From contig JAHLMM010000003.1 in NCBI GenBank assembly GCA_018920365.1, forward strand, positions 1 through 56,169: a DNA stretch of 56,169 bases, in the 5' to 3' direction. The DNA comes from Candidatus Aenigmatarchaeota archaeon (GTDB taxonomy: Archaea > Aenigmatarchaeota > Aenigmatarchaeia > CG10238-14). Positions 16,643 to 50,245 of this stretch are shown piece by piece (position 1 is the first letter of the stretch; each line of letters begins with the position of its first letter). Below the pieces are notes generated by a model that was not told the origin of the DNA, did no database searches, and saw only the letters and a list, made by a program, of their open reading frames with translations. The position numbers were made by a program, and so were the translations under genes.

Positions 16643-18037
16643 ATGGCTGACCTGAATGAACTAATTGAACAGAAAAAAGAAATAGAGAATCTTCTTAAAT
16701 CTCTTGAGGATGAGTATGGCAGAGCTCAGATAAGCGATAACACTTATAATGAAATAAAAAATAAAAACAAGGCAAAACTGGCAGCTATAGAAGCAGAGAT
16801 ACAAAAGTTAGGCGGCGAACCTGTGCAGATTCAGCCAGAAGTTGAGCAGCCTGCGCAAACTCAAACTTTGCAACAACCTCAGAGCCAATCTCAACCATCA
16901 GTGCAAGTGGCTAAGACAGCAGATACAGCAAAAATTAAATCAGAAGTAATATCTGAACTCAATAAAAAAATAGAGACAGAAATAAACAAGATAAATGTTG
17001 AAATGGAAAAAATAAAGGCATTTCTTGACGCTCAAAAAGATTTGAGGGTAGCTACGGACGAAAAATTACAAAGACTGACAGAAGGAATAGGCGAGTTAAG
17101 ATCAATGATATTTCAAAAAGAAAGTGAAATTGACAAGATGAATGTTAAAGTGCAAAAAATAGAGGAGGTTTTCAATGATGTAAAGCCAGAGCAATATACA
17201 AGAGAGCTTCAAAAAAGAGATAAGGAATTAGCTAATCAAAATTTAAGGCTTGAAAAATTAGAAAAAGTCTCTTATGACATGGTTAAGGATGTTAATGAGA
17301 TCAGAAATGTATTCAAAGAAATTGGAAGTGTTGAAAATCTTGTAAATGTCAGCAAGAGAATAAATGAAAAATTTGTGAAAATGGAAAACATGTTGAGAGA
17401 TGTTGAAAAGATTTCTGAGAAAATTGAAAAATTGTTTGTAGAATTGAATAAAAAATTGGAAGAGTTTGAGGAATATAAAAATAAACAAATACAAATAGAC
17501 GGTTTGTCAAAAGACTTGCTCAAAGCTGTTGATGATATAAATGTTAAAATCGGCAAATTGGCAACAGAAGAAGAACTATATAAAATGAAAGAGTTATTTA
17601 CTTCATTCACAAAAGATTTGGAAGATGTCAAAAAATCAGTTTCTAGCGGAATACCATTTTTAGGCCCATTGCCAGAAGAGATACAGCAGTTGCAGAAGCA
17701 GAAGCAAGAAATAAGCACACTGTTGAGCAATATTGATGAACAATACAAAAACAGAGCGATAAAAGAACAAGATTACAAGAAAATCAGAGAAGCTAATTTG
17801 GAAAAACTTGCAAACATTGACAAACAAATAAGGGAAAGCATAGAAAGGATAAAAGGAGTTCAAACCCAACCAGTTGTTCAGCCTGTTATTCAAGCTCAGT
17901 CAGAACCCTTACCACAACCAACACCAGTTGAAGAAGATAAAAGTACAAAACTGCTGAATGATTTGAAAGAGTTGTATAAGAAGGGATTGATTAGTGAAAA
18001 AGCATATCAAAAAACGTCAAGAATGCTGGTGAAATAA
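16643..18037 (+). CDS. Coiled-coil protein with duplicated helical hairpins and a SHOCT-like C-terminus
   Basis: 464-aa ORF; heptad-rich centre; Pro/Gln-rich linkers; C-terminal LLNDLKELYKKGLISEKAYQK. Confidence 0.8.
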   Translation: MADLNELIEQKKEIENLLKSLEDEYGRAQISDNTYNEIKNKNKAKLAAIEAEIQKLGGEPVQIQPEVEQPAQTQTLQQPQSQSQPSVQVAKTADTAKIKSEVISELNKKIETEINKINVEMEKIKAFLDAQKDLRVATDEKLQRLTEGIGELRSMIFQKESEIDKMNVKVQKIEEVFNDVKPEQYTRELQKRDKELANQNLRLEKLEKVSYDMVKDVNEIRNVFKEIGSVENLVNVSKRINEKFVKMENMLRDVEKISEKIEKLFVELNKKLEEFEEYKNKQIQIDGLSKDLLKAVDDINVKIGKLATEEELYKMKELFTSFTKDLEDVKKSVSSGIPFLGPLPEEIQQLQKQKQEISTLLSNIDEQYKNRAIKEQDYKKIREANLEKLANIDKQIRESIERIKGVQTQPVVQPVIQAQSEPLPQPTPVEEDKSTKLLNDLKELYKKGLISEKAYQKTSRMLVK

Positions 18038-19151
18038 GTGAAATTAAATCCAAAAATATGGAAAAGACTTTTTGATTTTGCACCAGACATTTATTACATA
18101 CATGATGATAAAGGTACTTTTGTTTATGCTAACAGAATGGCTGAAAAAATCACTGGTTTATCGTCAAAAAAGTTGACATCAAAAAAATTCATAGAGTTAG
18201 GAATTTTCCCTGATTATGAGGTTGCAAAGATAGGTTGTCTTATCAAGTCTGTTTTGAATGGAAAGCAAATAGGCCCTGTTAATGTTGATGTAAAGAATAC
18301 CAAAACTGGAAAGATAACAACAGTTGAAGTTATTGCTAAAAGATGCTATTGTAACATTAATAAAAAATTTTGTCTTGGGGGTTGCGCGAGATGTTACTAA
18401 TAAAGTTAATGCAGAAAAAAAGTTAAAAGATTCTATAAGAAAATTAAAAGAATTAAATAAAGAAAAAAACATGTTTCTTTCGATTGCAGCGCATGAATTA
18501 AAAACACCAATGGCTGCCATAAAAGGTTTTACACAATTACTTAATAACGACGAATTAATTAAAGATAAAGAAAAAAGAAGTAAATATTTGAAAATAATTG
18601 AAAATGAAGTTGATAGACTGTCATTGCTTGTCACAGATTTACTTGATTTAACAAGAATAGATTTGGGAACTATTAAATTAATAATAGAAGATACAAATGT
18701 TTCTGAAATTTTGGACAGGGTTGAAAAAGAAATGCAGCAATTGGCTAAAGAGAAAAATTTACAGTTAAGTTATGAATGCAAAAAAGAGATAAAATTAAAA
18801 ACAGACAAAGAAAAGCTTTACGAAATATTAATTAATCTTGTAAGTAATGCAATAAAATATACAGAAAAAGGTTTTGTCAAGATTGTTGCCGAAAAAGAAG
18901 GGAAACTGATCAAATTTTCTGTAATTGATACAGGAATAGGCATAGACAAAAAATATCGTAAGAAAATATTTGAAAGGTTTTTCCAAATAGATCCAACATA
19001 TACAAGAGAAAACAAAGGCTATGGGTTGGGATTATCTGTTTGCAAAGAACTTGTTAACAAAATGGGAGGAAAAATATGGTTTGATAGCGAAGTTGGCAAA
19101 GGCACAACTTTTTATTTCACCTTACCAATAAATAGTAGAGTGAAAAGATGA
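18038..19151 (+). pseudogene. PAS-domain sensor histidine kinase, split by an apparent frameshift (PAS part 18038-18400; HisKA/HATPase part in another frame to 19151)
   Basis: PAS part FAPDIYYIHDDKGTFVYANRMAEKITGLSSKKL; second frame GVARDVTNKVNAEKKL...SIAAHELKTPMAAIKGF...NLVSNAIKYTEKG...DTGIGIDKKYRKKIFERF...GYGLGLSVCKELVNKMGG. Confidence 0.85.
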
Positions 19152-19900
19152 AATTAAATCCAATAATATTATTTGTTTTAATAGGTTTAGCTGATATAGC
19201 TTTATATATAACAAAGCCATTTGGCGAAAACTTTTATATCATAGCAGACATTCTTCCAGTATTAAATTCATCTTTATTCTTTTTGTTTGCCTTTTTAGCT
19301 TATAAACCATACGGCTTCAACAGCATTCAAGGCAAATCTTTGTTTTTCATGTTTTTAGGTGCTTTATCATGGTTTTTAGGAGAGGCAACATGGTTTTTAT
19401 ATGAATTAAACGGTATAATGTCTCCTAATATATCAATAGCAGACTTTTTCTGGATTTTAGGCTACCCATTTTTTATTATAGGTCTTTTTAATTTGTTTAA
19501 AATTTCAAAATCAAAGATAACAACAACAAAAATTGTTTTTTCAACTACTATTACATTGTTTATTACAATATTTACATATATCCTTATTGAGTTTAGTTAC
19601 AAGAATATTACATTGGTTGAAGAAATTTTAATTCTGAGCTATGTGTTTTTAGATGCTTTACTTCTTATAAAAACTTTTATTGTTGTTTCAAATATTCGCA
19701 AAAGTGAGTTTTTCAAACCTTGGAGTATAATTCTCTTGTCATTTTCGCTAATTTTGATAGCAGATATAATATATTATAACATTGTTGAAATTTATGAGAC
19801 AGGTGAATGGATAGACTTGCTTTGGATTTTATCATATCTAAGCTTGGGTTATGGATTTTATTATCACTTAAAAACAACAAGAAAGATAATAAAATCTTAA
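19148..19900 (+). CDS. Polytopic membrane protein, 7TM-sensor-like
   Basis: 250 aa, about 7-8 hydrophobic segments; ADFFWILGYPFFIIGLFNLF resembles integral-membrane sensory modules; overlaps the end of the kinase gene by 4 bp. Confidence 0.7.
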   Translation: MKLNPIILFVLIGLADIALYITKPFGENFYIIADILPVLNSSLFFLFAFLAYKPYGFNSIQGKSLFFMFLGALSWFLGEATWFLYELNGIMSPNISIADFFWILGYPFFIIGLFNLFKISKSKITTTKIVFSTTITLFITIFTYILIEFSYKNITLVEEILILSYVFLDALLLIKTFIVVSNIRKSEFFKPWSIILLSFSLILIADIIYYNIVEIYETGEWIDLLWILSYLSLGYGFYYHLKTTRKIIKS

Positions 19901-20094
19901 ACATATTTTTTGTATAACTTTGCAAATTTTTCTCTTGCAGCATCTTCGCCTACAAATTTTGCTAAAAAATAGATGCAATCTTCTAAAAATTCTTTTGGAT
20001 ATCTTTTTGGGTCAGAAAATTTATTTACCATTTCAGCTGCTTCATTGCCTACTGCTTGCTTTATTATGTTTTTAGCTTCTTTTGCTATGTCCAT
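19897..20094 (-). CDS. Small hypothetical protein (65 aa)
   Basis: ORF with likely ATG at 20094 preceded by GGTGGTAC; MDIAKEAKNIIKQAVGNEAAEMVNKFSDPKRYPKEFLEDC.... Confidence 0.6.
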   Translation of the reverse strand: MDIAKEAKNIIKQAVGNEAAEMVNKFSDPKRYPKEFLEDCIYFLAKFVGEDAAREKFAKLYKKYV

Positions 20095-20224
20095 TCTTGT
20101 ACCACCGTTTTTTATGTTGTAGACACTTAATGGCAAAATGACCATACTGAAAGTATCTAGGATTCCTAGCATTCAATCGTTTAATTTAAATTTAGGTTTA
20201 TTTAAAATTATGTTTTGAGTAGAA

Positions 20225-20590
20225 ATGACGAGAATAATGGTAGTAGACGACGAAGAAAGTATATTGATATTAGTTAAAGAAGTATTAGAGCAAGAAGGTT
20301 TTCAAGTAGATACAGCATCTGATGGAAAGGAATGCTTGAATAAATTAAAAACTGTAAAACCAGATTTGATAGTTTTGGACATGATGATGCCAGGAATGAC
20401 AGGTAAAGATGTACTTGAGAAGATAAGAGAAAACCCAGAAACTAAAAAAATCAAAGTAATATTTTTGACAGTTGCTAGAATGTCTGAAGTAGGAAAAAAA
20501 GAAGTGGCTAAACTTGGTATATCAGACTATATAACAAAACCATTTGATAACAACGATCTAGTTGATAGAGTAAAAAAGGCTTTAAAATAA
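20225..20590 (+). CDS. Stand-alone CheY-like response regulator receiver
   Basis: MTRIMVVDDEES...DLIVLDMMMPGMTGKDVL...VIFLTVA...DYITKPFDNNDLV. Confidence 0.92.
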   Translation: MTRIMVVDDEESILILVKEVLEQEGFQVDTASDGKECLNKLKTVKPDLIVLDMMMPGMTGKDVLEKIRENPETKKIKVIFLTVARMSEVGKKEVAKLGISDYITKPFDNNDLVDRVKKALK

Positions 20591-20600
20591 GGCGACATTC

Positions 20601-21215
20601 TTGAAGCCTGATATAACTTCAAGCGAAAAAGAATTGATTAAGAAAGCTTTAGCAATAGCTTCAAAAAACTCATTTTCTGCTTTATCTCAAACATTATCTA
20701 AAAAGATAAAGGCATTGAAAACAGATGTTGACATTTTATCGATAAAAGATTTGATAGAAACATTTTATCCTTACACAGAAAAACCCATTGCAACATGGGT
20801 AAAAGTGGAAAATAAACTTCAAAATACAATATTTGTTCTTTCAAGAGAAAATGACATTCTAAGGCTTGCTGATGTAGCGTTGCACAAAGAGTATGGCTTC
20901 TACAAGTCTTTAAGCGATGAAAATGTATCAGTTATAAAACAAATATGCGATTTGATTATAGGATATTTTATAGATGCAGAAATAAAGTTGTTCGCGGACA
21001 ATTTTGAACAAAGTAAACCAGAATTATCCATAAATCCTGCCAGAGCTGTTGAATTTTTTGGATTTAAAGATGTATATAGTCAAAAATTCCTTGTATTAAG
21101 TACTGGCTTTTCTATAGAAAATAGTATAGAGTGTAAAATATTCTTGATTTTCAAAGCAAATGAAAAAAATGAAATAATCAAGCGCATAGAAGAAAATATT
21201 CATTTGATCAGCTGA
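20601..21215 (+). CDS. CheC-like protein (TTG start)
   Basis: Two CheC-like half-repeats (EKELIKKALAIASKNSFSALSQTLSKKI; VSVIKQICDLIIGYFIDAE), directly downstream of a CheY-like gene. Confidence 0.6.
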   Translation: MKPDITSSEKELIKKALAIASKNSFSALSQTLSKKIKALKTDVDILSIKDLIETFYPYTEKPIATWVKVENKLQNTIFVLSRENDILRLADVALHKEYGFYKSLSDENVSVIKQICDLIIGYFIDAEIKLFADNFEQSKPELSINPARAVEFFGFKDVYSQKFLVLSTGFSIENSIECKIFLIFKANEKNEIIKRIEENIHLIS

Positions 21216-30999: not shown

Positions 31000-31084
31000 T
31001 AAATATAATATCAAAGTAAAATTAAACGATTTTCTGTAAAAATGCAAATCTTAAATTAAATTAACGACAAATATATTTCAATTG

Positions 31085-31858
31085 GTGAATATTTTGACTA
31101 GGGTAATAGGGGTAGTTTCTGGAAAAGGTGGTGTAGGCAAAACAACACTTGTTTCTAATTTAGGTGCAGCATTAGCATCAGTGTTTAAGATAAATGTTAC
31201 AATTGTTGATTGTAATATAACCACATCCCATCTAGGATTATATTTGGGCATGTATTATTCCCCTGTTACAATAAACAAAGTTTTAACAGGCGAAGAACCA
31301 ATAGAAAATTCAATGTATGAGCATTTTACAGGCATGAAAATAATACCTGCTTCTCTTTCTCTGAAAGATCTATCAGGCGTGGATATGTTTGCATTGAAAA
31401 ACGCGATAAAAAATTTGTCAGGTAAAACAGACATTGTAATATTAGATTCTGCTCCAGGACTTGGTAGAGAAGCACTTTCTGCTATAAGAGCTTGCGATGA
31501 AGTTATTTTTGTAACTACACCATTTGTACCAGCTGTGATGGATATAGTAAAAATGAAGAGATTGATAGATGAATTAAATGTTAAAACAAATGGTATAGTT
31601 TTAAACATGGTTAAAAGAGAAAAATATGAATTGACAAAAGATGAAGTTGAAAAATTAGCAGAATTGCCTGTTATATCAATAATACCAGAAGATAAAAACG
31701 TTCCGAGAAGTTTGTCTGCAAAAGTACCTACTGTTGTTTTATATCCAAACTCGCCTGCTTCTAGGGAAATGAAATCATTGGCAGCAATGCTTATAGGAGA
31801 GTATTATGAAAAAACAGATCCATTCACAAGCATAATAAACAGGCTGAAATTCTGGTAA
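31085..31858 (+). CDS. MinD/ParA-like P-loop ATPase
   Basis: VIGVVSGKGGVGKTTLVSNLGAALA...VTIVDCNITTSHLGLYLG...IVILDSAPGLGREAL. Confidence 0.93.
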   Translation: MNILTRVIGVVSGKGGVGKTTLVSNLGAALASVFKINVTIVDCNITTSHLGLYLGMYYSPVTINKVLTGEEPIENSMYEHFTGMKIIPASLSLKDLSGVDMFALKNAIKNLSGKTDIVILDSAPGLGREALSAIRACDEVIFVTTPFVPAVMDIVKMKRLIDELNVKTNGIVLNMVKREKYELTKDEVEKLAELPVISIIPEDKNVPRSLSAKVPTVVLYPNSPASREMKSLAAMLIGEYYEKTDPFTSIINRLKFW

Positions 31859-31917
31859 AACCTCATTAAATATTTATTTCAAGATATCAAAATTAGTTTT
31901 AAGTATTAGGTGTAACA

Positions 31918-33171
31918 ATGTCTAAAAAAGCTACTCAAGCAGAGCCGCAACAAAAAACAGAAACAGAAGAGCAATTAAAGAAAAAAGTTGATAGTCTTGT
32001 TGATATAATTGAAGAGTTATCAAGCAATGTTGATAAGAACGGGCTACCTGAAGTTGAAAATTTAATAGACACTAAATTGAAAGAAATGAATGAAAAATTT
32101 GAGCTGAAATTTCAAGATATAAAAACAGTTCTTGATAATATAGAAAAAAAAGCAGGTAGAGGCAAAACAAAAGAAGAAATATCAAGTTTGGTTGATGAGT
32201 TCAAAAAAACATTGGAACCAAGATTAAACACAATAGAGGATAAATTAAAAGCATTAGACACACTTGAAACTATGAATGAAAACAAGGACGATAAAAAAGA
32301 AAAACAGCCAAATCAGAATTTGCAGCCAGGTCAGAATTATGAGATTGAATCAATAAAGAGAAATGTCTCTGAAATAAACCAATCTCTATCATCATTAAAA
32401 GATCAAATGGACACTATAAGAAACGGTGTAAAGGCTCAAGGGTTGCTTGATTCTTCTGATATTCAGAAATTAGAACATATTTTATCATCGCTTGATGAAA
32501 TGATTCCTCAAAAAAATGTTATAGACAATTTCAGAATAACTTTCAGAGAAATCAATGATTTGAGAAATAAAATCAACGAATTCAAATCCGATATGCAGAG
32601 AGTCTTTGAAAAACAAAAAGAATATTATGATGAAATAGATTCTAGAATAGAAACTCTTGTAAAGTTTTTGAATGCTGTTATTGAGGAGAGAGACAGAAAC
32701 TACAATGAATTAAGCAAGACAACTTCTGATACATATGTAAAGTCATTAAATCTGGAGAAATTGTCTCAAAATTTATATTCAGAGATGAGGGAAATAAAAG
32801 AATCTTTGAGAAGACAAAATGAAAAAATAAAGGAGCTTGAAGATACAACAAGAATGCTGGTTAAGTTTTCTGAAAAGGAATTCAAAGAGATCAACGACAA
32901 TATAAGGAGATCTGCTCAAGAAAATAGTAGAAATTTCAAGGATATTTATGCTCATGTTGATAAATTGAACAGTTCAATGAATGGTAGCATTTCTAACATG
33001 AGTAAGAAAATTGATGAACAAATGAAATTGTTGGATAAAACAATTTATGAAGGGTTAGCAAAGAATAATGAGCTAATAAAAATAGTTGCAGAAGAGAAAA
33101 AAGGATTGGAAAAGGCAATTGATTATAGAAAGCAAAAAATAGTTAATATATTAAAGGAGTTGAGGAAGTAA
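31918..33171 (+). CDS. Coiled-coil protein
   Basis: 417 aa, Lys/Glu-rich heptads; stop overlaps the next start (TAATG). Confidence 0.8.
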   Translation: MSKKATQAEPQQKTETEEQLKKKVDSLVDIIEELSSNVDKNGLPEVENLIDTKLKEMNEKFELKFQDIKTVLDNIEKKAGRGKTKEEISSLVDEFKKTLEPRLNTIEDKLKALDTLETMNENKDDKKEKQPNQNLQPGQNYEIESIKRNVSEINQSLSSLKDQMDTIRNGVKAQGLLDSSDIQKLEHILSSLDEMIPQKNVIDNFRITFREINDLRNKINEFKSDMQRVFEKQKEYYDEIDSRIETLVKFLNAVIEERDRNYNELSKTTSDTYVKSLNLEKLSQNLYSEMREIKESLRRQNEKIKELEDTTRMLVKFSEKEFKEINDNIRRSAQENSRNFKDIYAHVDKLNSSMNGSISNMSKKIDEQMKLLDKTIYEGLAKNNELIKIVAEEKKGLEKAIDYRKQKIVNILKELRK

Positions 33172-35225
33172 TGGACGACCTTGACATTTTAAGCAGCGCT
33201 TTGATTGAGTTAAAGAAAAAAATAGATGATCAGAACAAGGTAATAGAAAAACTGAATTTAGAAAAGCTAGATTTGTTAGAAAAATATAATTATTTAGTAC
33301 AAAAAATTAACGACATTTCTTTAAAACAAAAAGAGAGTGAGAAGTATAACGACAATTTAAACAAAGATTTAGAAAAGTACAGAAAATTGCTGAATGATGT
33401 AGAAAAACTTATTGACATGAAATTTAGCGATCTTTCAAAGAAGATAGACGCAGAAAAGATCAAAGAAAAAATCAAAGATTTAGAAGATCTAAAAGACACA
33501 GACAAGAAAATAACTGATATAGCAAATTTTCAGAAACTATTGGAGAAGAAAATAGAAAATAATTATGCTTTAATTAAAGATTTTGAAAAGAACGTTCAAT
33601 CAATAATAAAACAAGAAGATAAAAAACAAAATTCTAAAGCATCAGAAATAGCAAAAGAATATTTTGATAAATTAACTCAAAATCTTTCTGAATTAAAGAG
33701 CGACTTGAAAGATCAAAAATCACAATTATCTCAAGTTTTGAAGGAAAATGAAAAATTGAAACAAATGAATTCAACAAGATTCGAAGCTTTAATGAAAACA
33801 GATATGGCATTAAATCAGATTTTAAAGAAATATGAAAACTATATTTTAGAGCTTGATAAAAAAGTTGATGATAAAATAAAAATAATAAACGATCATATAA
33901 AATCTTACGAGACTAATTTAAACAAAGTAATTGAAGATGAAAAAGATCAAAACAATATATTAAAGTCAAACATAGAGAAGATAAGTCAAGAGATAAAAGA
34001 TCTGAAATCTAAGCTCAAGCAAGGTAAAGATATAGAAGAAAATTATATCAACAAATTAAAAAGCGATTTAGAAAATAAAATCAAACTCGACATTTCCCAG
34101 ATCAAGAATGATATAAACGATTTGTCATCAAAAATAAAGCAGAGCCAATCATCCCAAGATGACTATATCAACAAATTAAAAAGCGATTTAGAAAATAAAA
34201 TCAAACTCGACATTTCTAGTTTAAAGGAGAACATGATTACTGAGATTTCTAATGAGAAAAATGATATTTCAAATAATTTGGATAAAATAAAATTACTAGA
34301 AAAAAAATATTATGATATTGAAAAATATTATAAAACATTAAACGAAGAGATTGCAACTTCACATAAAAAGCTTATGGATGAAGCTAGAAAAATTTCAAAG
34401 AAAGAAATAGAATCGTCAACAGAATCACTTTCAAATGAAAATAAAATTATAAACCAGAAACTTAAACAAATGGAGATAAGTTTCAATTTAATGGTAAAAG
34501 ATTCTAATAATTTTTATGATTCAATGAAAAAAGATATTAATTATATAAGAGATTTTGTTTTTTCTGTAGACAATTCTGTTAAAGACGAAATTGAAAAGAG
34601 ATTAATTGTTCAGGATAAATTAAGCGATTTGGCTTCAAACTTCAGCAGACTTATGGATGATATAGATAATTTTAAACTTAATGTTGAAGATAGAATAAGA
34701 AAAAATATTGATGAAATATCTTCTTTGGAAAAATCAATTTCGAAAAATCAAAAAGAACTTTATAACTATGTTAATTCGGAACAAACAAAACTGTTCGACT
34801 TTACAGATAAAAAATTCAAAGAAATTAGTAAGAAAATTGATGATTTGAATAAAGAAAGAAATTTAAAAGAAGAGAAGAGAATAGAGAAATTGAACATGTT
34901 GTTAAAAGAATTATACCAGGCAAAATCGTCAATTGAAACAAAAATTGATGTACTTTCATCTTACATTAACAAATTCAATGAAATTAAGAACTCATTTATG
35001 AAGGAAATTTCATCTGAAACAAGACATATCGTTAAAGATATTGAAAGTAAACAGAAGATTCATGATAATAAAATACTTTTGGCAGATAGAGATATAAAAG
35101 AAATGGAGAAGAGAATTGATAAATTGGAGAGAACTATATTAGAACTTTCTAAACAAGTAGAGATATGGAAAGAGAGATATAAACTTCAGCTTGGTAGAAT
35201 AGCAGAAGAAGTTGATTTAGAATGA
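33171..35225 (+). CDS. Long coiled-coil protein
   Basis: 684 aa, almost entirely coiled coil. Confidence 0.85.
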   Translation: MDDLDILSSALIELKKKIDDQNKVIEKLNLEKLDLLEKYNYLVQKINDISLKQKESEKYNDNLNKDLEKYRKLLNDVEKLIDMKFSDLSKKIDAEKIKEKIKDLEDLKDTDKKITDIANFQKLLEKKIENNYALIKDFEKNVQSIIKQEDKKQNSKASEIAKEYFDKLTQNLSELKSDLKDQKSQLSQVLKENEKLKQMNSTRFEALMKTDMALNQILKKYENYILELDKKVDDKIKIINDHIKSYETNLNKVIEDEKDQNNILKSNIEKISQEIKDLKSKLKQGKDIEENYINKLKSDLENKIKLDISQIKNDINDLSSKIKQSQSSQDDYINKLKSDLENKIKLDISSLKENMITEISNEKNDISNNLDKIKLLEKKYYDIEKYYKTLNEEIATSHKKLMDEARKISKKEIESSTESLSNENKIINQKLKQMEISFNLMVKDSNNFYDSMKKDINYIRDFVFSVDNSVKDEIEKRLIVQDKLSDLASNFSRLMDDIDNFKLNVEDRIRKNIDEISSLEKSISKNQKELYNYVNSEQTKLFDFTDKKFKEISKKIDDLNKERNLKEEKRIEKLNMLLKELYQAKSSIETKIDVLSSYINKFNEIKNSFMKEISSETRHIVKDIESKQKIHDNKILLADRDIKEMEKRIDKLERTILELSKQVEIWKERYKLQLGRIAEEVDLE
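34044..34216 (+). repeat. 53-nt exact direct repeat (34044-34096 and 34164-34216), offset exactly 120 bp
   Basis: Both copies read TATATCAACAAATTAAAAAGCGATTTAGAAAATAAAATCAAACTCGACATTTC. Confidence 0.9.
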
Positions 35226-36040
35226 ATTTTGTAAACAAAACAGTTAAGGGTATTAATAAAATAAAAAAAGAGAGAGACGAATGGATGAAAAAATATCAGG
35301 ATTTAGTTAACCATTATGCTACTTCAATACAAACTGCAATTAACGAGGCTAAGAATGCAGAAAATATTGTAAAAGATGATAAAAAAGAACATGAAAAAAT
35401 CCAACAAAGATTGGATGAAATATCGTCGTTTGTTGAAGATTTTTATAAAACAGCAAGCAAGAAGATTGAACAAATAGAAAAATTTGACAAGGAATTGGAT
35501 TATAGCAAAAAAGAAATATTTTCAAAACTTGAAACGCAGGTAAAGGTAAATGAAGATATGCATTATGATATACGTCTTTTAAAGGAAAGAATAAAAAAAA
35601 TTGAAGAAATCCAGGATAGACAGGAAAAACTAATAAAGGAAATGAATGACTCCATAAAAGAATTCAAGAATTATGTTGTTTTACACATAAACTCTGCGAA
35701 TATAGAGTATGAAAAAAGGTTTGAAAAGTTTAAGGAAAGATATGAGGATTCTATGCAAATTTCCAATGAATTGAGGAGAGATGCAAAAAAATTAAACAGT
35801 TTTGCACAGATTCTTGAGAATTTTCACAAAAGAATAAAGAATATAGAATTAAAAATAGACAAAATTGAAAATATGTTGTCTGCAAATGAGAAGAGAATAG
35901 ATATTGTTAGGAGAGAAAAGGAAGTTATAAATGATAGGATATATGATGTGAAGGAAGATATAAGTTTAAAACTGAAAGAAATAGAAGATCTTGTTTATAT
36001 GTTAGAAGAAGATATAAAAGAAATAAAAAAATCTAGATAA
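35222..36040 (+). CDS. Coiled-coil protein
   Basis: 272 aa; ATGA overlap with the upstream gene. Confidence 0.8.
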   Translation: MNFVNKTVKGINKIKKERDEWMKKYQDLVNHYATSIQTAINEAKNAENIVKDDKKEHEKIQQRLDEISSFVEDFYKTASKKIEQIEKFDKELDYSKKEIFSKLETQVKVNEDMHYDIRLLKERIKKIEEIQDRQEKLIKEMNDSIKEFKNYVVLHINSANIEYEKRFEKFKERYEDSMQISNELRRDAKKLNSFAQILENFHKRIKNIELKIDKIENMLSANEKRIDIVRREKEVINDRIYDVKEDISLKLKEIEDLVYMLEEDIKEIKKSR

Positions 36041-40225: not shown

Positions 40226-43200
40226 ATGAATTTAAAAAAGATGGTTACTATAATTCTGTTTTTAATACCCATATCTTACTCAATAAGCATAATAGGCTTT
40301 GATGATACGGAAAACTCATTTTTTATTGAAGCAGATAATATAAGAAATGCTGTTTTTGAAATTGACGGATATAACTACACCGCTGGCAAAATAGACAATC
40401 GTTATTATGTTTTTTTGAACGACTTGAAAGGTGATAAAAACTATAGCTGGTATATAGAAGACGTTAATAAAAGCTTTAAGATAGATGGACTCTACAACGA
40501 CACTAAAATTAAAAAGTTTAGAGAAAGAGGGATTAAAGCAGATTTTTCCGAAGGTGTGTATAGATTATCTATAGATAAATCAACCAAAAAAGTGGAAATA
40601 GAGTCTGAAGAAGTTACAGGAGATGAAAATATAGAGGTATTCGATAATTTTAATGTTAATGATTTTGCCTCTATAAATAAAATTCAAGTAAGGGACATGA
40701 TTTGGGTTGAGGCAAACGATTTTGAAAATTGCAATGGAAAGATTTATCTCCCAAGCGTATATAACAAAGTCTTTTATTGCGAAGGTGATATGAATAATCC
40801 TTATTGTTATTTTATTGACAAATGCGGTGTAGAACCTTGCTTTAAAATAGAAAATTCATCAACAGTGATTTATCTTGACCATTTTTCTGGAGGCGGCGGA
40901 GGCGATCCTGTCTTGCAATTCAATCAGACTCAAACAGCAAATTTAACAGGAAATGCATCAACATTGAATCAAGAAGCAATAGATTCATATCTAAATTTTA
41001 ACGATGGATTGACATGGGATGTCAGCGAATCATCTTATGAAAAAAAATGGATATCTGAAAATCAACTTTCAAGCACTTTGCAGTTAAAACAAATATCCAG
41101 AGAGCAAAAAACAGTTGAATATTATATTTATCAGGGCATGACACAGCAAGCAGCAAACACAGATTTGAATGGTACCTTTACAATTTACATTCCTGAAAAA
41201 AATCCTCAGATAAAAAGTGCTTATGTTGAAGTTAGAAACATTGTTTATAACACACAGATCACTGCTGGGCAGACGATAATAATTTGGAATGGAACTCAAA
41301 ATACAACTCTTTTAACAACAAACACAGGATTTGCTGCAACAGGAGAGCAAATGGTTTATGTAATAACCGCAAATGCTACACCTGCTTTGGATTTTATAAG
41401 CTCTTCAGGTCAGTATACATTTACTTTGTATACAAGATTAAATGCCATAAGACAAGGAGAATCTGCAAAACTTGTTTTAACATATGAATATGATTCTGAC
41501 TCACCAAGACAAATTAAGACAGTCAAATTTTTTGTAGGTCAATTAACATCACCTTTAGCTGTCGGATCATCAACAAATTTTCAAATATCGCCATTAAACT
41601 TGCCTGAAAAGAATGTTCAAATAAGGGATAGTTTTTTTGAGACTTTTATTCATTTGCAGCCCGGTGGGACTGTTGACGAAGGTATAAACATTAACTTGGA
41701 TGGGGTTAACGCTATATCAGGCACACCAATAGACAATGCTGGTGCAACAACTATTGATTATATGTTCTTATACAAAAACATCTTTGATACAAATACTGCG
41801 CACACATTCAATTTTCAGCCAACAGCGGGATATGCTGTTCATGCTGTAGGTACAGAGTTGACATTAACATATGAATATGATGCAGATTCGCCATATCAAC
41901 TTAAAACAGTGAAATATCTTATGGGTCAAAACCCTAATATTTATACAACAGCAAACACTTTTAGTTTTTCAAGAATAATAGACATACCAAATTCCTCAAG
42001 TATAATTTCAGCCTACAACAAAGTAAGGTTTTCCATAGCATATGGAAGTGGCACGGGCACAGCAGCTTATACAACAACTATTGGCGTCAATTCTTCTGTT
42101 CAAGGCCAGAGTCAGCCACAAGCTTCATACACATTGGGCTTGAGGGATGAGCAAGTGAGTGTATCAACTATTTTGTATAATGCGTCTGGTTTGTACAATA
42201 TTGCTGATGGATCAAATGTTATATGCACAATATATAGTAGCGCAACAAACACAAGCTTTTATACTTCATCCAAAGGTTGTGAGTTGACATTGACTTATTT
42301 GCACTCTTTGCCAAGCAGAATAAAAACAGTGAGTTATTTTGGAGATCAAACTTTCAAGAGTGCTTTGAACTTGTCTGCATTGCTAAACTTTTCATTTTAT
42401 TTACCTGAAGAAAATTCTAAAATCAAACAATCATACATTGACATAAAAGGATTTACAGGATATACAACAGCTGCAAATATTTTGTTAAACTCTAGCATAA
42501 ATTTCCCAGGGAGAGTGATTCAATCATGCTATTTTAGAAACACAGGAGAAAATAGATATGACACTTGTTGGGATGATGTTACCGACAATGTGACTTTATC
42601 AGGAAACTATCAAATAATAGCTGGTTCTGGTACAGCAGCCACAGTAACAAGATGGTATAGTGCTTTGACATATTTCACATATAATTATACAGGATCTTTA
42701 GAGAAAAACACAACTTGGCATCAATATAGTTTTTCAGGTGAAGATTATAGCTCTGCAAGTTCTGTTTCAGCCATAGTTGGTATATCTTTTTATAATCCAT
42801 CTGCTTCAAATTCAACTTTCAACAGCAATAACAGACCTGACATAGAAGTTTCATTTTGGAATGGTACAGATTTTACAACCAGCAGCTACTGCAACTTATA
42901 TCAGTTAGGCGATGCTCCATATCAAGGCGATTACAATTGCACAATAAAATCATTAGATGTTTCTATATTAGACGCTTGGAGATTTTCTTCAAACAGAACA
43001 ATTAGAATAAGAGGTGTATGGTTTGATGACTCTGATTATTATTCAGATGAAATAAACATATCATCTATATATGTTGAAATAAACAGGACATTCTATAGGC
43101 TTTCCATAGAGCATAATTCTTCTTTATCTTTTCCTGGCTCGCTTATAAGCATAAACGCGTCAATAAACTTTTCTTCATCAACAGGTGGTATTTACAACAT

Positions 43201-46200
43201 GTCAATTTATAATTTTGCTGAAAGTAGGTGGGATTCTAGTTTTTGCCAGAATATTTCAGCATCACAAAACAACTTCTATGTGATTTCATGCAATGTCACT
43301 TCTAATCCAAACTATTATGTTTCTAGCGGAATAGCTAGAATAAGGATTGAATCCACTTCAGATGACGTTTACAGCACATTGAGGGAAGATTATGTTCAGT
43401 TTTATACAAATTCCATGGAAACAATGCCACCTCAAATATTTTTACATTACCCTGAAAATCAAGCTAGATTTTCTATTCAAGACATTGAATTCAATTTTAC
43501 TGTTAGTGATGATTATACACAACAAATGACATGTGATTTATATTTGGATGGCGAAAACACTAGCACCACACAAGCAAACAACGACACTGTTTCTTCTTTT
43601 TCTTTGACAAACATACCTTTTGGAAATCACACATGGTTTGTTAATTGTAGTGATGGTGAGGTTTACAACTCAAGCGAGCAAAGATTTTTCAATATAGGAA
43701 CGCCGCCATATGTTAAAATAGAGCATCCTATTTTTGAAAGTTTTGATGAGCACTACACAGTTCCTATAATTGCAAACATAACAGACCCAGATGGAATAAA
43801 ATCAGCCTATGCAAAAATTCTGACACCAAACCAATCTTTAATATTCATAGATTTTACAAAAACTCAGCAGAATGATCAATTCAGCAACAACATTGAGTGG
43901 AAGAAAGAAGGCGATAACTTTGACGGTAGAGAGTGTGTTTTTAACATAAACCAGGATTATGCTGGTAAAGCCTTTACAGGATTAAGTGGCAGTGGCCAGC
44001 CAAACACACAAATCAACGGATTTTTGTGCTCAGCCATTTCAAAATCAGTTTTATACAGAGATTTTGACATCAATATTTCATTTGAGGTTTTGCAAGAGCA
44101 AGGAAATGATTACGCAATCAACTTTCAGATAATGGAAAATCCGTCTTCATTGTATGCATCAAAGTTGGCATTCATTTCTTTGTCAAAATGGACTGGCTAT
44201 GATAGAGTTTATGAAGTATACGTAAATGATGGAAGCACAGAAGGATATTTATCTTCAAGACCGACAAATGATACAGAAGGTAAATTCAGAATAAAAAGAA
44301 CAGGCAACAATTTTGAATTTTACACGTGGAATTCAAGCTCGTGGGTTTTGGAAGCATCTTCAACATTAAATTTTCTTGAGACTGTCTACATAGCATTTGA
44401 ATCAGAAACATCATATCCGTCTTGGGGAGTTTTAAACGCCACATGGGATGATTTTGGTGTATTGTCTTCAAACTTTTCTGTTGCTTTTTTCAATTCAACA
44501 GAGATAAATGGTGAATATGAAGCAAATGTTGTTGCAATAGACATTTATGACGCTGTAAATGATACTGAAAAAACAAACTTTACAATTCAGTTTTCAAACG
44601 ACCGACCTTCAGTACCGTTTATTATAAAACCAACTCCAAATGAGATAGTTAGCGGTGTATATGAGATAATTTGGTCTAATGTTTTTGATTATGAAAATGA
44701 CAATCTTAGATATAATATTACATTATTAAATTCTGATTATACATATAATCAAACAATAGTTGAAAATTACGGCAATTCCACAACAACTTCATATTTATGG
44801 AATACTTTGCCTTTTGCAGAAGGAAATTATTCTATTAGAATAGTCGTTTATGAAAATGAAACTTTAGAAATGTACAACAACAGCTTCACTCTGCCAGGAA
44901 TTTTTGTAATAAACAAACCTCCGTCTGTTATAATAAATTCGCCAAAAAATGATAGTTATTGCGGCCAATGTGTCCCAATATCAATAAACGCCACTGATCC
45001 TAATGGCATAGATAAAGCTATAGCTGAAATAACTTTGCCTAATGGCACTGTAGAGAATTTATATTTAGATTATGCAATTTCAGACGATAGTTTTGATGAG
45101 GGAAATAACTGGTTTTTGGAACAAACTATTGATGAACAGCAAAACTGTACTTCATATGTTGATGGAAAGGCGTTTTTATCAATCCAAGGAAACGGAACAT
45201 CTTTAACAAATACTGTTTGTACATTAATCTCTAAAAAAGGTGTTGATGGAGATTTTGATGTTAGCGTTGATTTCAACATAACAAATTATACAAATAACGA
45301 TAGTGCTGTAAATTTTTTAATTTTGCCGAGAAACACGTCGTCAGAATCACCATTTTACATGTTTATTTCTTTATCAGAATGGTCAGGTATGGGTAGGAAT
45401 TATGAAGTTTATGTTAGCAATGGAACATTTAGCGATTATATTTCAACAAGGCCGACAAATGATACAGAAGGTAAATTCAGAATAAAAAGAACAGGCAATA
45501 ATTTTGAATTTTATACGTGGAATTCAAGCTCATGGCTGTTAGAATCATCAGGAGAGTTTGCTTTTCCAAGAATTGTTTTTATAGGACTCGAAGTTGAGAA
45601 TGCTTACCCTATGTGGGGCAGCATAAATGCAACTTTTGACAATTTTATGATTCAAAGAAATGATTTTCTTTTTAATATTTATCATGCTGACTTAGAGGGC
45701 TTGCACAATATAACATTTTTCGTTAATGATACTTTTGGTGGAATAAATAATACCGAAAAAACAAACTTTACATCTTTGCACATAAATATTCCACCTACCC
45801 AACCATTTATTTTGTATCCATCTCCAGGAACGATTGTAGGCAATACAATAACAATAGTGTGGTCAAACGTTTTTGACTTTAACAACAATACTTTAAGATA
45901 CAATATAACTTTGCTTAATTTAGACTATTCTGTTAATGAAACATTGGTGACAGAATATGGAGATGCTTCAATCGCATATTATTCGTGGAATACTCATGGA
46001 GTAAAAGATGGAAAATATCTTCTGAAAATAGATGTTTATGAAAACGAAACCCAGCAAAAATTAAGCAACAACTATACAATGTCAGATTACTTTGTGATAG
46101 ATAACACAAAACCTTTGGTGTTTTTCAATTATCCAACACCACAAAACAATACAATAATCAACAAAACTTTTATTGAGATTAATGTTACGGCTATAGACGA

Positions 46201-49200
46201 AAACATGAATTACATAGACGTTTTTGTTTTCAATCAAAGTGATGATATGATATACGACGATGAAATGTATGGAAAAGATGCGTTTTTCAATGTGACTAAT
46301 TTAGATGAGCAAAATTACAGTTTTTATTTAATCGCATATGATAAATCTGTAAACTCAAATTCAACTGGATATTCAAATGTCGAAATAGATTTAACGCAAC
46401 CATTTATTTCAATTTCAAGCCCACTCAATCAAACATACAATTATCATTTGATTTTACTTAACATAACATCTCAAGACAAGAATTTGAACAAGACATTTTA
46501 CAAATGGAATTCTTCTGGATTTTTCGAATACAGCGGAGAAGCTCAAATAAAATTTGACGAAGGCGTCAATTTTGTCGAAGCTATAAGTTATGATCAATCA
46601 GGGAATTCCAATAAGACAAATGTTACATTCACTGTTGATACTTTGCCGCCGTATATAGTATTTCACAACCCTACACCTTTAAACAATACAATAGTCAACA
46701 AAAACTGGGTATATGTAAATCTAAGCTCTGATGCAACAGATGTATATATGGAGTGGAATGGTTTCAATGAAAGCATGAACTTTGATAATTTTTGGTATAT
46801 AAACAAGACAAATTTATTAGACGGAATATATTATTACAGAATATTTTCAAAAGATCAGTTTGAAAATTGGAATTACACAGGATTCTATTATGTTTTTATA
46901 GACACTAAATCTCCTCAGTGGTATGACAACAAGTCATCGCCTTTGTCGTTTGTTCAATATAATCAAAGAAATTATATTTTCAATGTTACATGGCAAGATG
47001 AGAATCAAATATCTAATGTATTTATAGAAAGCAATTTCACAGGTAATCTTGAAAACAATAGTGTCAATAGCAATATGAATGAGTATTATTATACTATCAA
47101 TGACTTGAAACCTGGATATTATGTATGGAGATTTTATGCGAATGACACTGCGAATAATTGGAATAAGACTGATCAGTGGGTTTATGTTGTTGAAAAAAAC
47201 AATACAGAAATAAAACTTTACATAAACGGTAGCGAATCTGACATAACTTTACCTTTGAATTCTTTTGTCAACATAACCTCGTACATCAGCATAAATGAAT
47301 TGATAAAGATATATTCAAATCTTACAGGTTGGCAGACACAAGAAGGCGTAAGTTTAATTGAAAATATAACCCAACTGTCAGAAAAAAGAAAATATAATAT
47401 TACTGCTGAATTTCTTGGAAATGAAAACTACACATATTCATCAAAAACGTTGTTTTTAACAGTAGAAGATTTTTCATATCCATACTATACATATTTAATT
47501 CAAAACAACAGTTGGGTTGGTGTTGGTCATTCAATATTATTAGCTGCAAATTGGTCAGACAATTATGATTTGGATTATGCGTGGCTTGAAACAAATGAGA
47601 CAGGTTTTTGGAAGGCACGTTCATATATTGACATAAACCTGACAAGTGATCAAACATGGTCAAATTTTTCATGGTCAAATTCATCCATTCCAGCAGGAAC
47701 TGTCATAGCGTGGAGAATATATGCAAATGACACAAGTGGTAATGAAAATTATACAAATGAAATGACATTTGCAGTCAATGCTAGCGAGATATGGAAGTTT
47801 TTGACAAACGGCTTCATCTATTCTTCCCCGGCGATAGGCGATGTTGATGGTGACGGCAATATAGACGTTGTTTTTGCTTCTTATGATAGGAAATTATATT
47901 CATTAATTGGATATAATGGTACGAAACTGCTTGAATTCTTGACAAACAACAGCATAGCGTCATCGCCATCTTTGCTGGCAACTCAAGAATCTTACATGAA
48001 AATAATAACAGCAAGCTATGATGGAAATGTTTATGCAATTAACGGAAGTGATGGTAGCAAGCTGTGGAATTTCACTACGGGAGGTTTGATATTTTCATCC
48101 CCTGCAATATATGACATAAACAATGACAACGTACAAGAAATAATCATAGGCTCTTATGACAAGAACATATATGTCTTGAATTCAACAGATGGGCAAAAGA
48201 TATGGAATTACACAACCGGAGGCAGAATAATATCATCACCTTCTGTCGTCATCTTTAGCGGAGATGTATTAATAATAGTAGGATCACATGACGGAAAATT
48301 GTATGCATTTAATTCAACCGGCGATCTTTTGTGGCACTTTTCAACACAAGACAAGATTGAATCATCACCTGCTATAGATGATTTGGATGGAGATGGAAAT
48401 TATGAGATTGCTTTTGGTTCTTATGACAACAAAACATATCTTATCAATGCAACCAATGGACAGCTAATATGGAGTTATACCACAGGAAATTGGATAACAT
48501 CATCTCCTGTCATAGCAGACATTGCAGGTCATAAAAAAGTAATCATAGCTTCACACGATTCAAAAGTTTACAGCTTAAATTCAGACGGCACATTAAATTG
48601 GACTTTTACAGTTTCAACAGGAGGAAGAATACAATCATCACCATCAATAATTGATTTGAATCTTGACGGCGTAAATGACGTTTTGGTTGGCTGTTCTGAT
48701 TCAAGAATTTATGCGTTAAATGGATTGAATGGGAATGTTATTTGGAGTTATAAAGTGAACGCATATATCTTTTCATCACCAGCAATAGCTGACATCAATT
48801 CAGACGGCACAAATGATTTTTTATTCGGCTCTTTTGATAAATATCAATATTCTCTTGATCCGCCAACATGGTCTGTATTTGGTGGCAATGAAAGAAGGAC
48901 AAGAATATTTGACAATGCTGAACCAGAATTGATTCACTTTGAAATAGACAATGAAACCAACAGTGTTTATAGTTTGTGGAGAGAGAGATTTTCAAATCTT
49001 GATTACGCAATAATTTCTGAAAACTCAACAGGCTATAGCAACGAACATTTTGTAAAATTGAAAGGAACACATGATTGGGTTAATTTTACATTTTATTCAA
49101 AAGGTGTTTATTTTGATATCAAAGTATTTGACGAGTACAACAATAGCAATTTTATTCAAGGTTTCATAGAAGGCGAAGCTGATAAAAAACCACCTCAGTG

Positions 49201-50245
49201 GCATGGCAATCAATCAACTAATTTTGTTTATAGAAAAGGAGCTGAATATAATTTTATTTTGAACTGGACAGATGAATCTGGTGTTGAAACGATTTTGTTT
49301 GAAAACAATTTTACAGGTTTGTTGATCAATCAATCTGATCCAAGCTTCAAAGATCTGGCGGCTGGAGTATATAGATGGAAGAGTTATGCAAAAGACTATT
49401 TGGGTAATTGGAATTCAACTGAAGAATACTATTTGATAATAAGCAAGGCCGATGCTATCATCAATTTTACAGTTGAAAATGTCACATATCCTGCAAAAGT
49501 CAATGCTTCTTGCAAAGGCGATTATTTGTATAGAAATGGCACTATAATTTCAAAAATTGACAATTCATCTCTTCCAGCAGGTGTGTGGAATTATACTTGC
49601 ATTAAAAATGAAGATCAAAATTATACATACATTCCTTCAACATCTTTTGTTTTTGTATCCAAAGGGTCACCTAAATTGGATTTGAATGCAAAATATGATG
49701 AATACTGCCCATCTAATGTTAAGATAAATGCTTATGAGATAAATGTAGGCGACAATGATGTTTACTACAAACTTTCAAACTCAACTCATGAATTTTATGG
49801 AAGCAACATTACTATATCATTCAAATCCTTGTCAGCTAATCATACATTCAGTTATTCATCATCAGGCGGCATGAATTGGACAACTAGCCAAAAATCAATT
49901 AGCTTTGTTGTAAAAGACAATAAACCTCCTGAAAAGGTTTATACAAAAGTCAAATTTACAAACCAAACATTTGTTATTGAATCTCTTTGGAATGACAGAT
50001 GCTCTGCCATAGCAAAATCAATTGTTACAGAAAATTCTTTAGGTTTTTTGAGGAACCACACAATTTATGGAAACGACATAAAATATACTTTTGACAAAGA
50101 TGATTTAAGAGATTTAAGAGGATGTAAAATTATAGCTGGATTGATATGCGTCAAATTGATAAATTATAAAATAACTGCTTTTGACAGCTTTGATAACTTT
50201 AATTCTGACAATGGATATATATTTTACTATTTTTATTTAAGGTGA
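40226..50245 (+). CDS. Giant secreted protein (3339 aa): beta-sandwich modules, two LamG-like modules, Ig-like repeats and an 8-bladed FG-GAP/PQQ-like beta-propeller
   Basis: Signal peptide MNLKKMVTIILFLIPISYSIS; two FRIKRTGNNFEFYTWNSSSW modules; eight SSPxIxDxxxDGxxxxxxGSYDxxxYxLN blades; no obvious C-terminal TM. Confidence 0.88.
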   Translation: MNLKKMVTIILFLIPISYSISIIGFDDTENSFFIEADNIRNAVFEIDGYNYTAGKIDNRYYVFLNDLKGDKNYSWYIEDVNKSFKIDGLYNDTKIKKFRERGIKADFSEGVYRLSIDKSTKKVEIESEEVTGDENIEVFDNFNVNDFASINKIQVRDMIWVEANDFENCNGKIYLPSVYNKVFYCEGDMNNPYCYFIDKCGVEPCFKIENSSTVIYLDHFSGGGGGDPVLQFNQTQTANLTGNASTLNQEAIDSYLNFNDGLTWDVSESSYEKKWISENQLSSTLQLKQISREQKTVEYYIYQGMTQQAANTDLNGTFTIYIPEKNPQIKSAYVEVRNIVYNTQITAGQTIIIWNGTQNTTLLTTNTGFAATGEQMVYVITANATPALDFISSSGQYTFTLYTRLNAIRQGESAKLVLTYEYDSDSPRQIKTVKFFVGQLTSPLAVGSSTNFQISPLNLPEKNVQIRDSFFETFIHLQPGGTVDEGININLDGVNAISGTPIDNAGATTIDYMFLYKNIFDTNTAHTFNFQPTAGYAVHAVGTELTLTYEYDADSPYQLKTVKYLMGQNPNIYTTANTFSFSRIIDIPNSSSIISAYNKVRFSIAYGSGTGTAAYTTTIGVNSSVQGQSQPQASYTLGLRDEQVSVSTILYNASGLYNIADGSNVICTIYSSATNTSFYTSSKGCELTLTYLHSLPSRIKTVSYFGDQTFKSALNLSALLNFSFYLPEENSKIKQSYIDIKGFTGYTTAANILLNSSINFPGRVIQSCYFRNTGENRYDTCWDDVTDNVTLSGNYQIIAGSGTAATVTRWYSALTYFTYNYTGSLEKNTTWHQYSFSGEDYSSASSVSAIVGISFYNPSASNSTFNSNNRPDIEVSFWNGTDFTTSSYCNLYQLGDAPYQGDYNCTIKSLDVSILDAWRFSSNRTIRIRGVWFDDSDYYSDEINISSIYVEINRTFYRLSIEHNSSLSFPGSLISINASINFSSSTGGIYNMSIYNFAESRWDSSFCQNISASQNNFYVISCNVTSNPNYYVSSGIARIRIESTSDDVYSTLREDYVQFYTNSMETMPPQIFLHYPENQARFSIQDIEFNFTVSDDYTQQMTCDLYLDGENTSTTQANNDTVSSFSLTNIPFGNHTWFVNCSDGEVYNSSEQRFFNIGTPPYVKIEHPIFESFDEHYTVPIIANITDPDGIKSAYAKILTPNQSLIFIDFTKTQQNDQFSNNIEWKKEGDNFDGRECVFNINQDYAGKAFTGLSGSGQPNTQINGFLCSAISKSVLYRDFDINISFEVLQEQGNDYAINFQIMENPSSLYASKLAFISLSKWTGYDRVYEVYVNDGSTEGYLSSRPTNDTEGKFRIKRTGNNFEFYTWNSSSWVLEASSTLNFLETVYIAFESETSYPSWGVLNATWDDFGVLSSNFSVAFFNSTEINGEYEANVVAIDIYDAVNDTEKTNFTIQFSNDRPSVPFIIKPTPNEIVSGVYEIIWSNVFDYENDNLRYNITLLNSDYTYNQTIVENYGNSTTTSYLWNTLPFAEGNYSIRIVVYENETLEMYNNSFTLPGIFVINKPPSVIINSPKNDSYCGQCVPISINATDPNGIDKAIAEITLPNGTVENLYLDYAISDDSFDEGNNWFLEQTIDEQQNCTSYVDGKAFLSIQGNGTSLTNTVCTLISKKGVDGDFDVSVDFNITNYTNNDSAVNFLILPRNTSSESPFYMFISLSEWSGMGRNYEVYVSNGTFSDYISTRPTNDTEGKFRIKRTGNNFEFYTWNSSSWLLESSGEFAFPRIVFIGLEVENAYPMWGSINATFDNFMIQRNDFLFNIYHADLEGLHNITFFVNDTFGGINNTEKTNFTSLHINIPPTQPFILYPSPGTIVGNTITIVWSNVFDFNNNTLRYNITLLNLDYSVNETLVTEYGDASIAYYSWNTHGVKDGKYLLKIDVYENETQQKLSNNYTMSDYFVIDNTKPLVFFNYPTPQNNTIINKTFIEINVTAIDENMNYIDVFVFNQSDDMIYDDEMYGKDAFFNVTNLDEQNYSFYLIAYDKSVNSNSTGYSNVEIDLTQPFISISSPLNQTYNYHLILLNITSQDKNLNKTFYKWNSSGFFEYSGEAQIKFDEGVNFVEAISYDQSGNSNKTNVTFTVDTLPPYIVFHNPTPLNNTIVNKNWVYVNLSSDATDVYMEWNGFNESMNFDNFWYINKTNLLDGIYYYRIFSKDQFENWNYTGFYYVFIDTKSPQWYDNKSSPLSFVQYNQRNYIFNVTWQDENQISNVFIESNFTGNLENNSVNSNMNEYYYTINDLKPGYYVWRFYANDTANNWNKTDQWVYVVEKNNTEIKLYINGSESDITLPLNSFVNITSYISINELIKIYSNLTGWQTQEGVSLIENITQLSEKRKYNITAEFLGNENYTYSSKTLFLTVEDFSYPYYTYLIQNNSWVGVGHSILLAANWSDNYDLDYAWLETNETGFWKARSYIDINLTSDQTWSNFSWSNSSIPAGTVIAWRIYANDTSGNENYTNEMTFAVNASEIWKFLTNGFIYSSPAIGDVDGDGNIDVVFASYDRKLYSLIGYNGTKLLEFLTNNSIASSPSLLATQESYMKIITASYDGNVYAINGSDGSKLWNFTTGGLIFSSPAIYDINNDNVQEIIIGSYDKNIYVLNSTDGQKIWNYTTGGRIISSPSVVIFSGDVLIIVGSHDGKLYAFNSTGDLLWHFSTQDKIESSPAIDDLDGDGNYEIAFGSYDNKTYLINATNGQLIWSYTTGNWITSSPVIADIAGHKKVIIASHDSKVYSLNSDGTLNWTFTVSTGGRIQSSPSIIDLNLDGVNDVLVGCSDSRIYALNGLNGNVIWSYKVNAYIFSSPAIADINSDGTNDFLFGSFDKYQYSLDPPTWSVFGGNERRTRIFDNAEPELIHFEIDNETNSVYSLWRERFSNLDYAIISENSTGYSNEHFVKLKGTHDWVNFTFYSKGVYFDIKVFDEYNNSNFIQGFIEGEADKKPPQWHGNQSTNFVYRKGAEYNFILNWTDESGVETILFENNFTGLLINQSDPSFKDLAAGVYRWKSYAKDYLGNWNSTEEYYLIISKADAIINFTVENVTYPAKVNASCKGDYLYRNGTIISKIDNSSLPAGVWNYTCIKNEDQNYTYIPSTSFVFVSKGSPKLDLNAKYDEYCPSNVKINAYEINVGDNDVYYKLSNSTHEFYGSNITISFKSLSANHTFSYSSSGGMNWTTSQKSISFVVKDNKPPEKVYTKVKFTNQTFVIESLWNDRCSAIAKSIVTENSLGFLRNHTIYGNDIKYTFDKDDLRDLRGCKIIAGLICVKLINYKITAFDSFDNFNSDNGYIFYYFYLR
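44261..45535 (+). repeat. 84-nt near-identical direct repeat (44261-44344 and 45452-45535)
   Basis: 3 mismatches in 84 nt, all synonymous (AAC/AAT, TAC/TAT, TCG/TCA). Confidence 0.88.
47785..48880 (+). other. Eight-bladed beta-propeller region within the 3339-aa protein
   Basis: Eight consecutive ~43-48-aa blades of the form WxFTTGGxIxSSPAIxDxxxDGxxEIxxGSYDxxxYxLNxxxG. Confidence 0.8.

Follow-up and report, generated by a model that had tools for sequence, protein, structure and literature searches.

Archaeal two-component signaling has been surveyed by Galperin et al. (2018; PMC5847659), who found that most archaeal REC-only regulators lie in no conserved gene neighborhood, that finished DPANN genomes hold almost no two-component genes, and that KaiC and DUF835 are archaeal two-component output domains. 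Because their genes keep no conserved neighborhood, most stand-alone archaeal receivers have no assigned target, and a conserved neighborhood in a DPANN lineage is for both of these reasons worth testing. Here, we analyze a cassette of signaling genes that follows a gene for a giant stalk protein with a C-terminal HerA-type ATPase (stalk-HerA) in a Candidatus Aenigmatarchaeota archaeon, a member of the DPANN (genome G000). The window, by which we mean the whole stretch analyzed, is contig C13 (56,169 bases) of this 752-kb draft genome, which is 94% complete. Reading 3' from stalk-HerA, the genes encode a 464-amino-acid (aa) coiled-coil protein (CC464; CC for it and its homologues), a PAS-HisKA histidine kinase, a 250-aa polytopic membrane protein (TM250), a small protein on the opposite strand, a stand-alone receiver, and a 204-aa protein with the CheC fold. 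We propose that the cassette encodes a two-component relay that works, or did so until very recently, and that it is an optional accessory of the stalk-HerA/CC machine in this family, a proposal whose chances we judge to be evenly balanced; the best reading we can offer is a portable sensor module that has been repeatedly recruited to the stalk/CC surface machine. If this link is real, it gives a first handle on what these uncharacterized giant surface ATPase machines respond to, and it hints that small-genome archaea may sense some signal in order to control one.

The cassette resembles the archaeal REC-only systems of that survey in having a cytosolic PAS-HisKA kinase, a REC-only regulator, and an output presumed to run through protein contact and not through DNA binding, but differs from them in that a conserved neighborhood, the CC/stalk locus, exists here, in a DPANN family. 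The 204-aa protein is homologous over ~150 to 200 residues to the CheC/CheX/FliY proteins (Thermotoga maritima CheC, 1XKR and 2F9Z), has the same fold, and likewise has a CheY-like neighbor. Unlike them, it lacks both E/N pairs, and the family has no CheW match, which argues against a classical chemotaxis array; with catalysis lost, it is in this respect more like the FliM middle domain, a noncatalytic CheC-fold switch protein. The ATPase shares the HerA central domain (PF01935) with the HerA/FtsK superfamily, but a single membrane segment links it to a giant extracellular stalk of repeats, and it has a coiled-coil, SHOCT-like partner. Archaeal KaiC/DUF835 loci hold a homologous kinase and receiver in other families of the class, whereas the module in the window has no adjacent KaiC or DUF835 gene.

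Kinase neighborhoods in the family and across the class

All cassette genes are kept in a sister species, Candidatus Aenigmatarchaeota archaeon SKW179 (G009), and the changes between the two genomes fall mostly at third codon positions; the cassette is therefore no chance run of open reading frames (ORFs), and its genes show purifying selection. HisKA kinases were found in 4 of the 12 genomes of the window's family, one in each, and every one of them is found at a CC/stalk locus. The four show three arrangements and three kinds of sensor architecture (PAS, two CBS domains, or membrane-anchored). The kinase starts directly 3' of the CC stop codon in G000 and G009; in G002, the interval between stalk-HerA and CC holds, on the opposite strand, a receiver and a kinase with two CBS domains and HisKA; and in G001, a kinase, two receivers, and a CheC gene are oriented divergently from the genes for CC664 and a stalk protein that lacks the ATPase, stalk-HerA being on another contig. 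The gaps from kinase to CC gene are 0, 0, ~100, and ~180 bp, and what the family kinases share as a neighbor is CC, not the ATPase. By a rough calculation with uniform placement, chance would bring the kinase within 3 kb of CC with a probability of ~1e-4 if two of these events were independent and ~1e-6 if three were.

The locus that the kinases adjoin has a stable core. In almost every sufficiently long locus of the class, a CC464 homologue comes next after stalk-HerA or close to it, and this holds for a second, paralogous stalk-HerA type as well. Often found 3' of CC are an ATPase-less second stalk protein (1,200 to 2,000 aa, with a hairpin tail) and a MinD-like ATPase (L108 to L118, L054, L015, and L145, from the class and from a Micrarchaeum). 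Stalk-HerA, CC, second stalk, and MinD form a conserved, unnamed surface-machine locus, and the two-component genes lie outside this core. Literature searches turned up no description of stalk-HerA fusions. The HerA domain of the window gene scores 42.2 bits with PF01935 (DUF87/HerA; cut-off, 23.2). Its ORF runs off the contig start, and since the open frame measures ~11,250 aa in G009 (C12) and in the same-genus genome G007 (C2), about half of the protein lies in the window; the last 1.4 kb, which encode the ATPase end, have zero second-codon-position changes between G000 and G009. An earlier note on this DNA, made from the sequence alone, had called CC464 SHOCT-like, which holds only in a loose sense: the Pfam family (PF09851) scores 12.9 bits, below its gathering score of 27, but a home-made profile finds three SHOCT-like hairpins (aa 9-56, 352-399, and 430-464). 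The same hairpins occur in the cytoplasmic tails of the ATPase-less second stalk protein, often encoded next to CC.

TM250 provides a separate connection to this core. A scan of 84,980 genomes with a three-row alignment of TM250 found six relatives. Relatives adjoin a kinase and receiver in three genomes of other families (G129, G141, and G143). In a Micrarchaeum metagenome-assembled genome (L145; DYHY01000006), a relative lies 7 bp 3' of a gene for a CC protein (E = 4e-81); next come a 1514-aa stalk protein without an ATPase and two MinD-like ATPases, and the stretch yielded no homologue of the kinase or the receiver. L145 ties TM250 itself to the stalk/CC locus, in a second phylum. The fold of TM250 has no significant match in the PDB, the best being seven-transmembrane rhodopsins at E ~0.1, and we claim no retinal role for it.

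Across the class, window-type receivers (score of at least 100 bits) occur in 22 of 156 genomes and stalk-HerA in 55, with both present in 18 (Fisher p = 1.9e-6; 1.2e-5 by permutation within families, these strata being inferred from the order of genome identifiers; 5.4e-5 without the window's family). This co-occurrence supports a link between receiver and stalk-HerA without proving it. A CC protein and a different receiver ~5 kb apart in another genome (G140:C36) were not counted, as unrelated genes lie between them. The earlier note regarded two-component parts as unusual in small-genome archaea; with receivers above the Pfam cut-off in 57 of the 156 genomes, they are not that unusual in this class.

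Several observations weigh against tying the module to the stalk machine. G007, which is 95% complete, has stalk-HerA and CC with no HisKA kinase or other two-component gene, the cassette being cleanly absent between CC and the downstream gene, and other kinase-less family genomes with stalk-HerA/CC likewise exist; the machine therefore does not need the kinase. The phylogenetic tree does not join G000/G009 with G002 and so favors, without proving, independent recruitment of the module by G000 and G002, but joining them is not rejected (approximately unbiased test, p = 0.097). Of the ~20 stalk-HerA loci examined outside the family, none adjoins a kinase. In G129, G141, and G143, homologues of the kinase, TM250, small protein, and receiver form a unit whose gene order is kept but whose strands differ. 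No stalk ATPase is adjacent to this unit: it is tens of kb off or on a different contig, or was not found. G143 has it at a distance of 58 kb on the same contig, and in G141 none was detected. The class-wide co-occurrence, too, could be partly due to genome size or completeness. The earlier note had suggested a pathway dedicated to the surface ATPase, and had itself named the same gene set without a stalk ATPase as a finding that would refute it. Given that the unit also occurs away from the stalk ATPase, the module is not exclusive and the strict form of the suggestion fails; the conserved neighborhood that the note proposed to look for does exist, in the recurrent adjacency of the family kinases to CC/stalk loci, in the co-occurrence of receiver and stalk-HerA, and in the TM250 relative of Micrarchaeum. 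The sensory-pathway hypothesis is thus partly supported, as a reasonable one that now has more behind it than a single locus could show.

These observations also bear on a different account, in which the module is part of class-wide KaiC/DUF835 signaling, with output through iKaiC-like proteins and perhaps on other surface proteins, and its stalk/CC placement is a family rearrangement without functional meaning. We regard this as a serious possibility, although not a probable one. Most other families have the kinase and receiver beside KaiC-like ATPase and DUF835-like genes, several of them with a LamG/NEW3 surface protein of 1300 to 1400 aa, and both KaiC and DUF835 count among archaeal two-component output domains (PMC5847659). 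However, neither lies beside the module in G000 or G009, with only one weak KaiC-family match in the genome; every HisKA kinase found in the family adjoins CC; and in another phylum, it is at a CC/stalk locus that the TM250 relative is found. Homologous surface proteins of 1,270 to 1,394 aa were seen near kinase/receiver/DUF835 genes in several families (L069, L074, L084, L085, and L092), with LamG and NEW3 domains in the one that was scanned. The idea that such proteins share a hairpin tail with the stalk machinery was dropped, as the hairpin profile found none in LamG/NEW3 proteins.

Proteins of the proposed relay and their predicted output

By profile matches, the host genome holds one receiver and one HisKA kinase in total. 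The receiver is matched by PF00072 over its full length, has no output domain, and keeps D8, D9, D52, T82, and K105 intact. No Pfam family matches the 204-aa protein, yet the earlier note was right to describe it as CheC-like: a profile built from five close relatives matches T. maritima CheC (1XKR) at E = 5e-11 in hmmsearch (9.6e-32 with eight relatives), and the AlphaFold model (predicted local distance difference test score, 88) matches CheC, FliY, and the FliM middle domain, with a Foldseek match to 2f9z at E = 3.4e-13 and a template modeling score of 0.73. The protein is a true CheC-fold homologue. Its catalytic E/N pairs are lost, with K15/A18 at site 1 and Q114/D117 at site 2, and the motif D/S-x3-E-x2-N is found at neither site; the relatives from G039, G037, and G001 still have E and N at site 2. 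With the E-x2-N pairs gone, the window protein is expected to bind rather than dephosphorylate.

We infer phosphotransfer, a sensor role for TM250, and both the direction and the target of control in a relay that might run as follows. The soluble PAS-HisKA kinase, probably paired with TM250 as membrane input, would phosphorylate the single-domain receiver, which would act by contacting other proteins, the CheC-fold protein serving as a noncatalytic binding adaptor. The output would reach the stalk machine, the most plausible route being the CC protein encoded directly beside the ATPase gene, such that CC464 would be the likeliest contact point of the module. If the link is real, the CC protein should be a binding partner of the receiver or of the CheC-like protein. 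A bolder version, which we think unlikely, is a chemotaxis-derived switch on a nonflagellar surface motor, where the receiver and a dead, FliM-like CheC-fold protein would dock on the CC partner and switch the giant membrane-spanning HerA ATPase on a membrane or cytosolic signal, such as contact with a host or partner cell.

The kinase, which the earlier note had read as one PAS-histidine kinase, is split in the window, where its PAS and HisKA/HATPase halves lie in different frames; in G009, it is one intact 371-aa ORF. The alignment places the difference in an A-rich A/T run near position 18367, where G009 has 2 nt more than the window. The H box and ATP-binding boxes of a HisKA kinase are present (AAHELKTP, NLVSNAIKY, DTGIGID, and GYGLGLS). 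Of the 96 changes between G000 and G009 in the catalytic half, 74 are at third positions, as are 47 of the 73 in the PAS half (the catalytic slice starts one base into a codon, so that the third position is the middle column of its tally); the gene was therefore under selection until recently, and the frameshift is a young mutation or an assembly error. It is quite improbable that the cassette is decaying, with the kinase a true pseudogene and the rest a remnant already lost in G007. Such decay would account for the frameshift and for the clean absence in G007, but it fits poorly with an intact kinase in G009, with third-position bias in both halves, with intact receiver and CheC-like genes, and with a single indel in an A/T run, which is a common assembly error. 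The PAS domain is 75% identical in aa and 78% in DNA between G000 and G009, and the kinase core and other cassette genes are 87 to 92% identical in DNA, as if the sensory input were changing.

A reduced chemotaxis or motility pathway, to which the CheY-like receiver with its CheC-fold neighbor and the chemotaxis genes of the same-class genome G054 might point, is scarcely credible and was rejected, as no CheW domain was matched in the 12 family genomes, the window's own among them, the catalytic residues of CheC are lost, and the kinase is of the HisKA and not the CheA type. The earlier note had seen no methyl-accepting chemotaxis protein (MCP) or CheA locally, and this extends to the genome as far as the lack of CheW shows, the MCP signal domain not having been searched separately. 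G054 has CheA, CheC, CheD, CheR, and several CheY-like genes (L077 and L093), a chemotaxis set in an Aenigmatarchaeota genome, with type IV pilus/archaellum-like genes on one contig.

Gene layout and neighboring genes

Features of the stalk-HerA end and the cassette are collected in Table 1. Our ORF and profile scans agree with the positions and strands first assigned to CC464, the polytopic protein, the small ORF, the receiver, and the CheC-like gene, and with a 4-bp overlap of the TM250 start with the kinase end (19148-19151).

Table 1. Positions of the stalk-HerA gene and cassette features in the window
Feature	Position	Strand	Basis
Giant stalk protein, C-terminal HerA-type ATPase, one transmembrane segment	14..16597	+	ORF; PF01935
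CC464, coiled-coil partner with three SHOCT-like hairpins	16643..18037	+	ORF, home-made hairpin profile
PAS sensor half of kinase, frame 1, GTG start directly 3' of CC464 stop	18038..18400	+	PF00989, 31.2 bits
HisKA + HATPase_c half of same kinase, shifted frame	18324..19151	+	PF00512, 69.7 bits; PF02518, 108.9 bits
A/T run with frameshift, window 2 nt shorter than G009	18365..18373	+	Alignment
TM250, polytopic membrane protein, 8 predicted helices	19148..19900	+	ORF; no Pfam family
Small 65-aa helical protein, conserved TM250 neighbor in several families	19897..20094	-	ORF
Stand-alone CheY-like receiver, 121 aa	20225..20590	+	PF00072, 108.6 bits (cut-off, 30.2)
CheC-fold protein, 204 aa, both catalytic sites degenerate	20601..21215	+	Profile match, AlphaFold model

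The small protein gives a weak death-domain-like match (PF14591, E = 0.056), a possible resemblance that we treat as a lead only. The host also encodes a second, shorter stalk-HerA (L056; G000:C11:27359-28693) of 2,210 aa, ~47% identical in the ATPase region, which has its own CC protein, is conserved in the family, and has no two-component genes nearby. Within the window, a MinD-like ATPase lies at 31082-31858, 10 kb downstream of the cassette, and is followed by coiled-coil proteins at 31918-33171, 33171-35225, and 35222-36040; these genes (31082-36040) may be related to the MinD genes seen at stalk loci. A second very large ORF of 3,339 aa occupies 40226-50245, on the same strand as the cassette.

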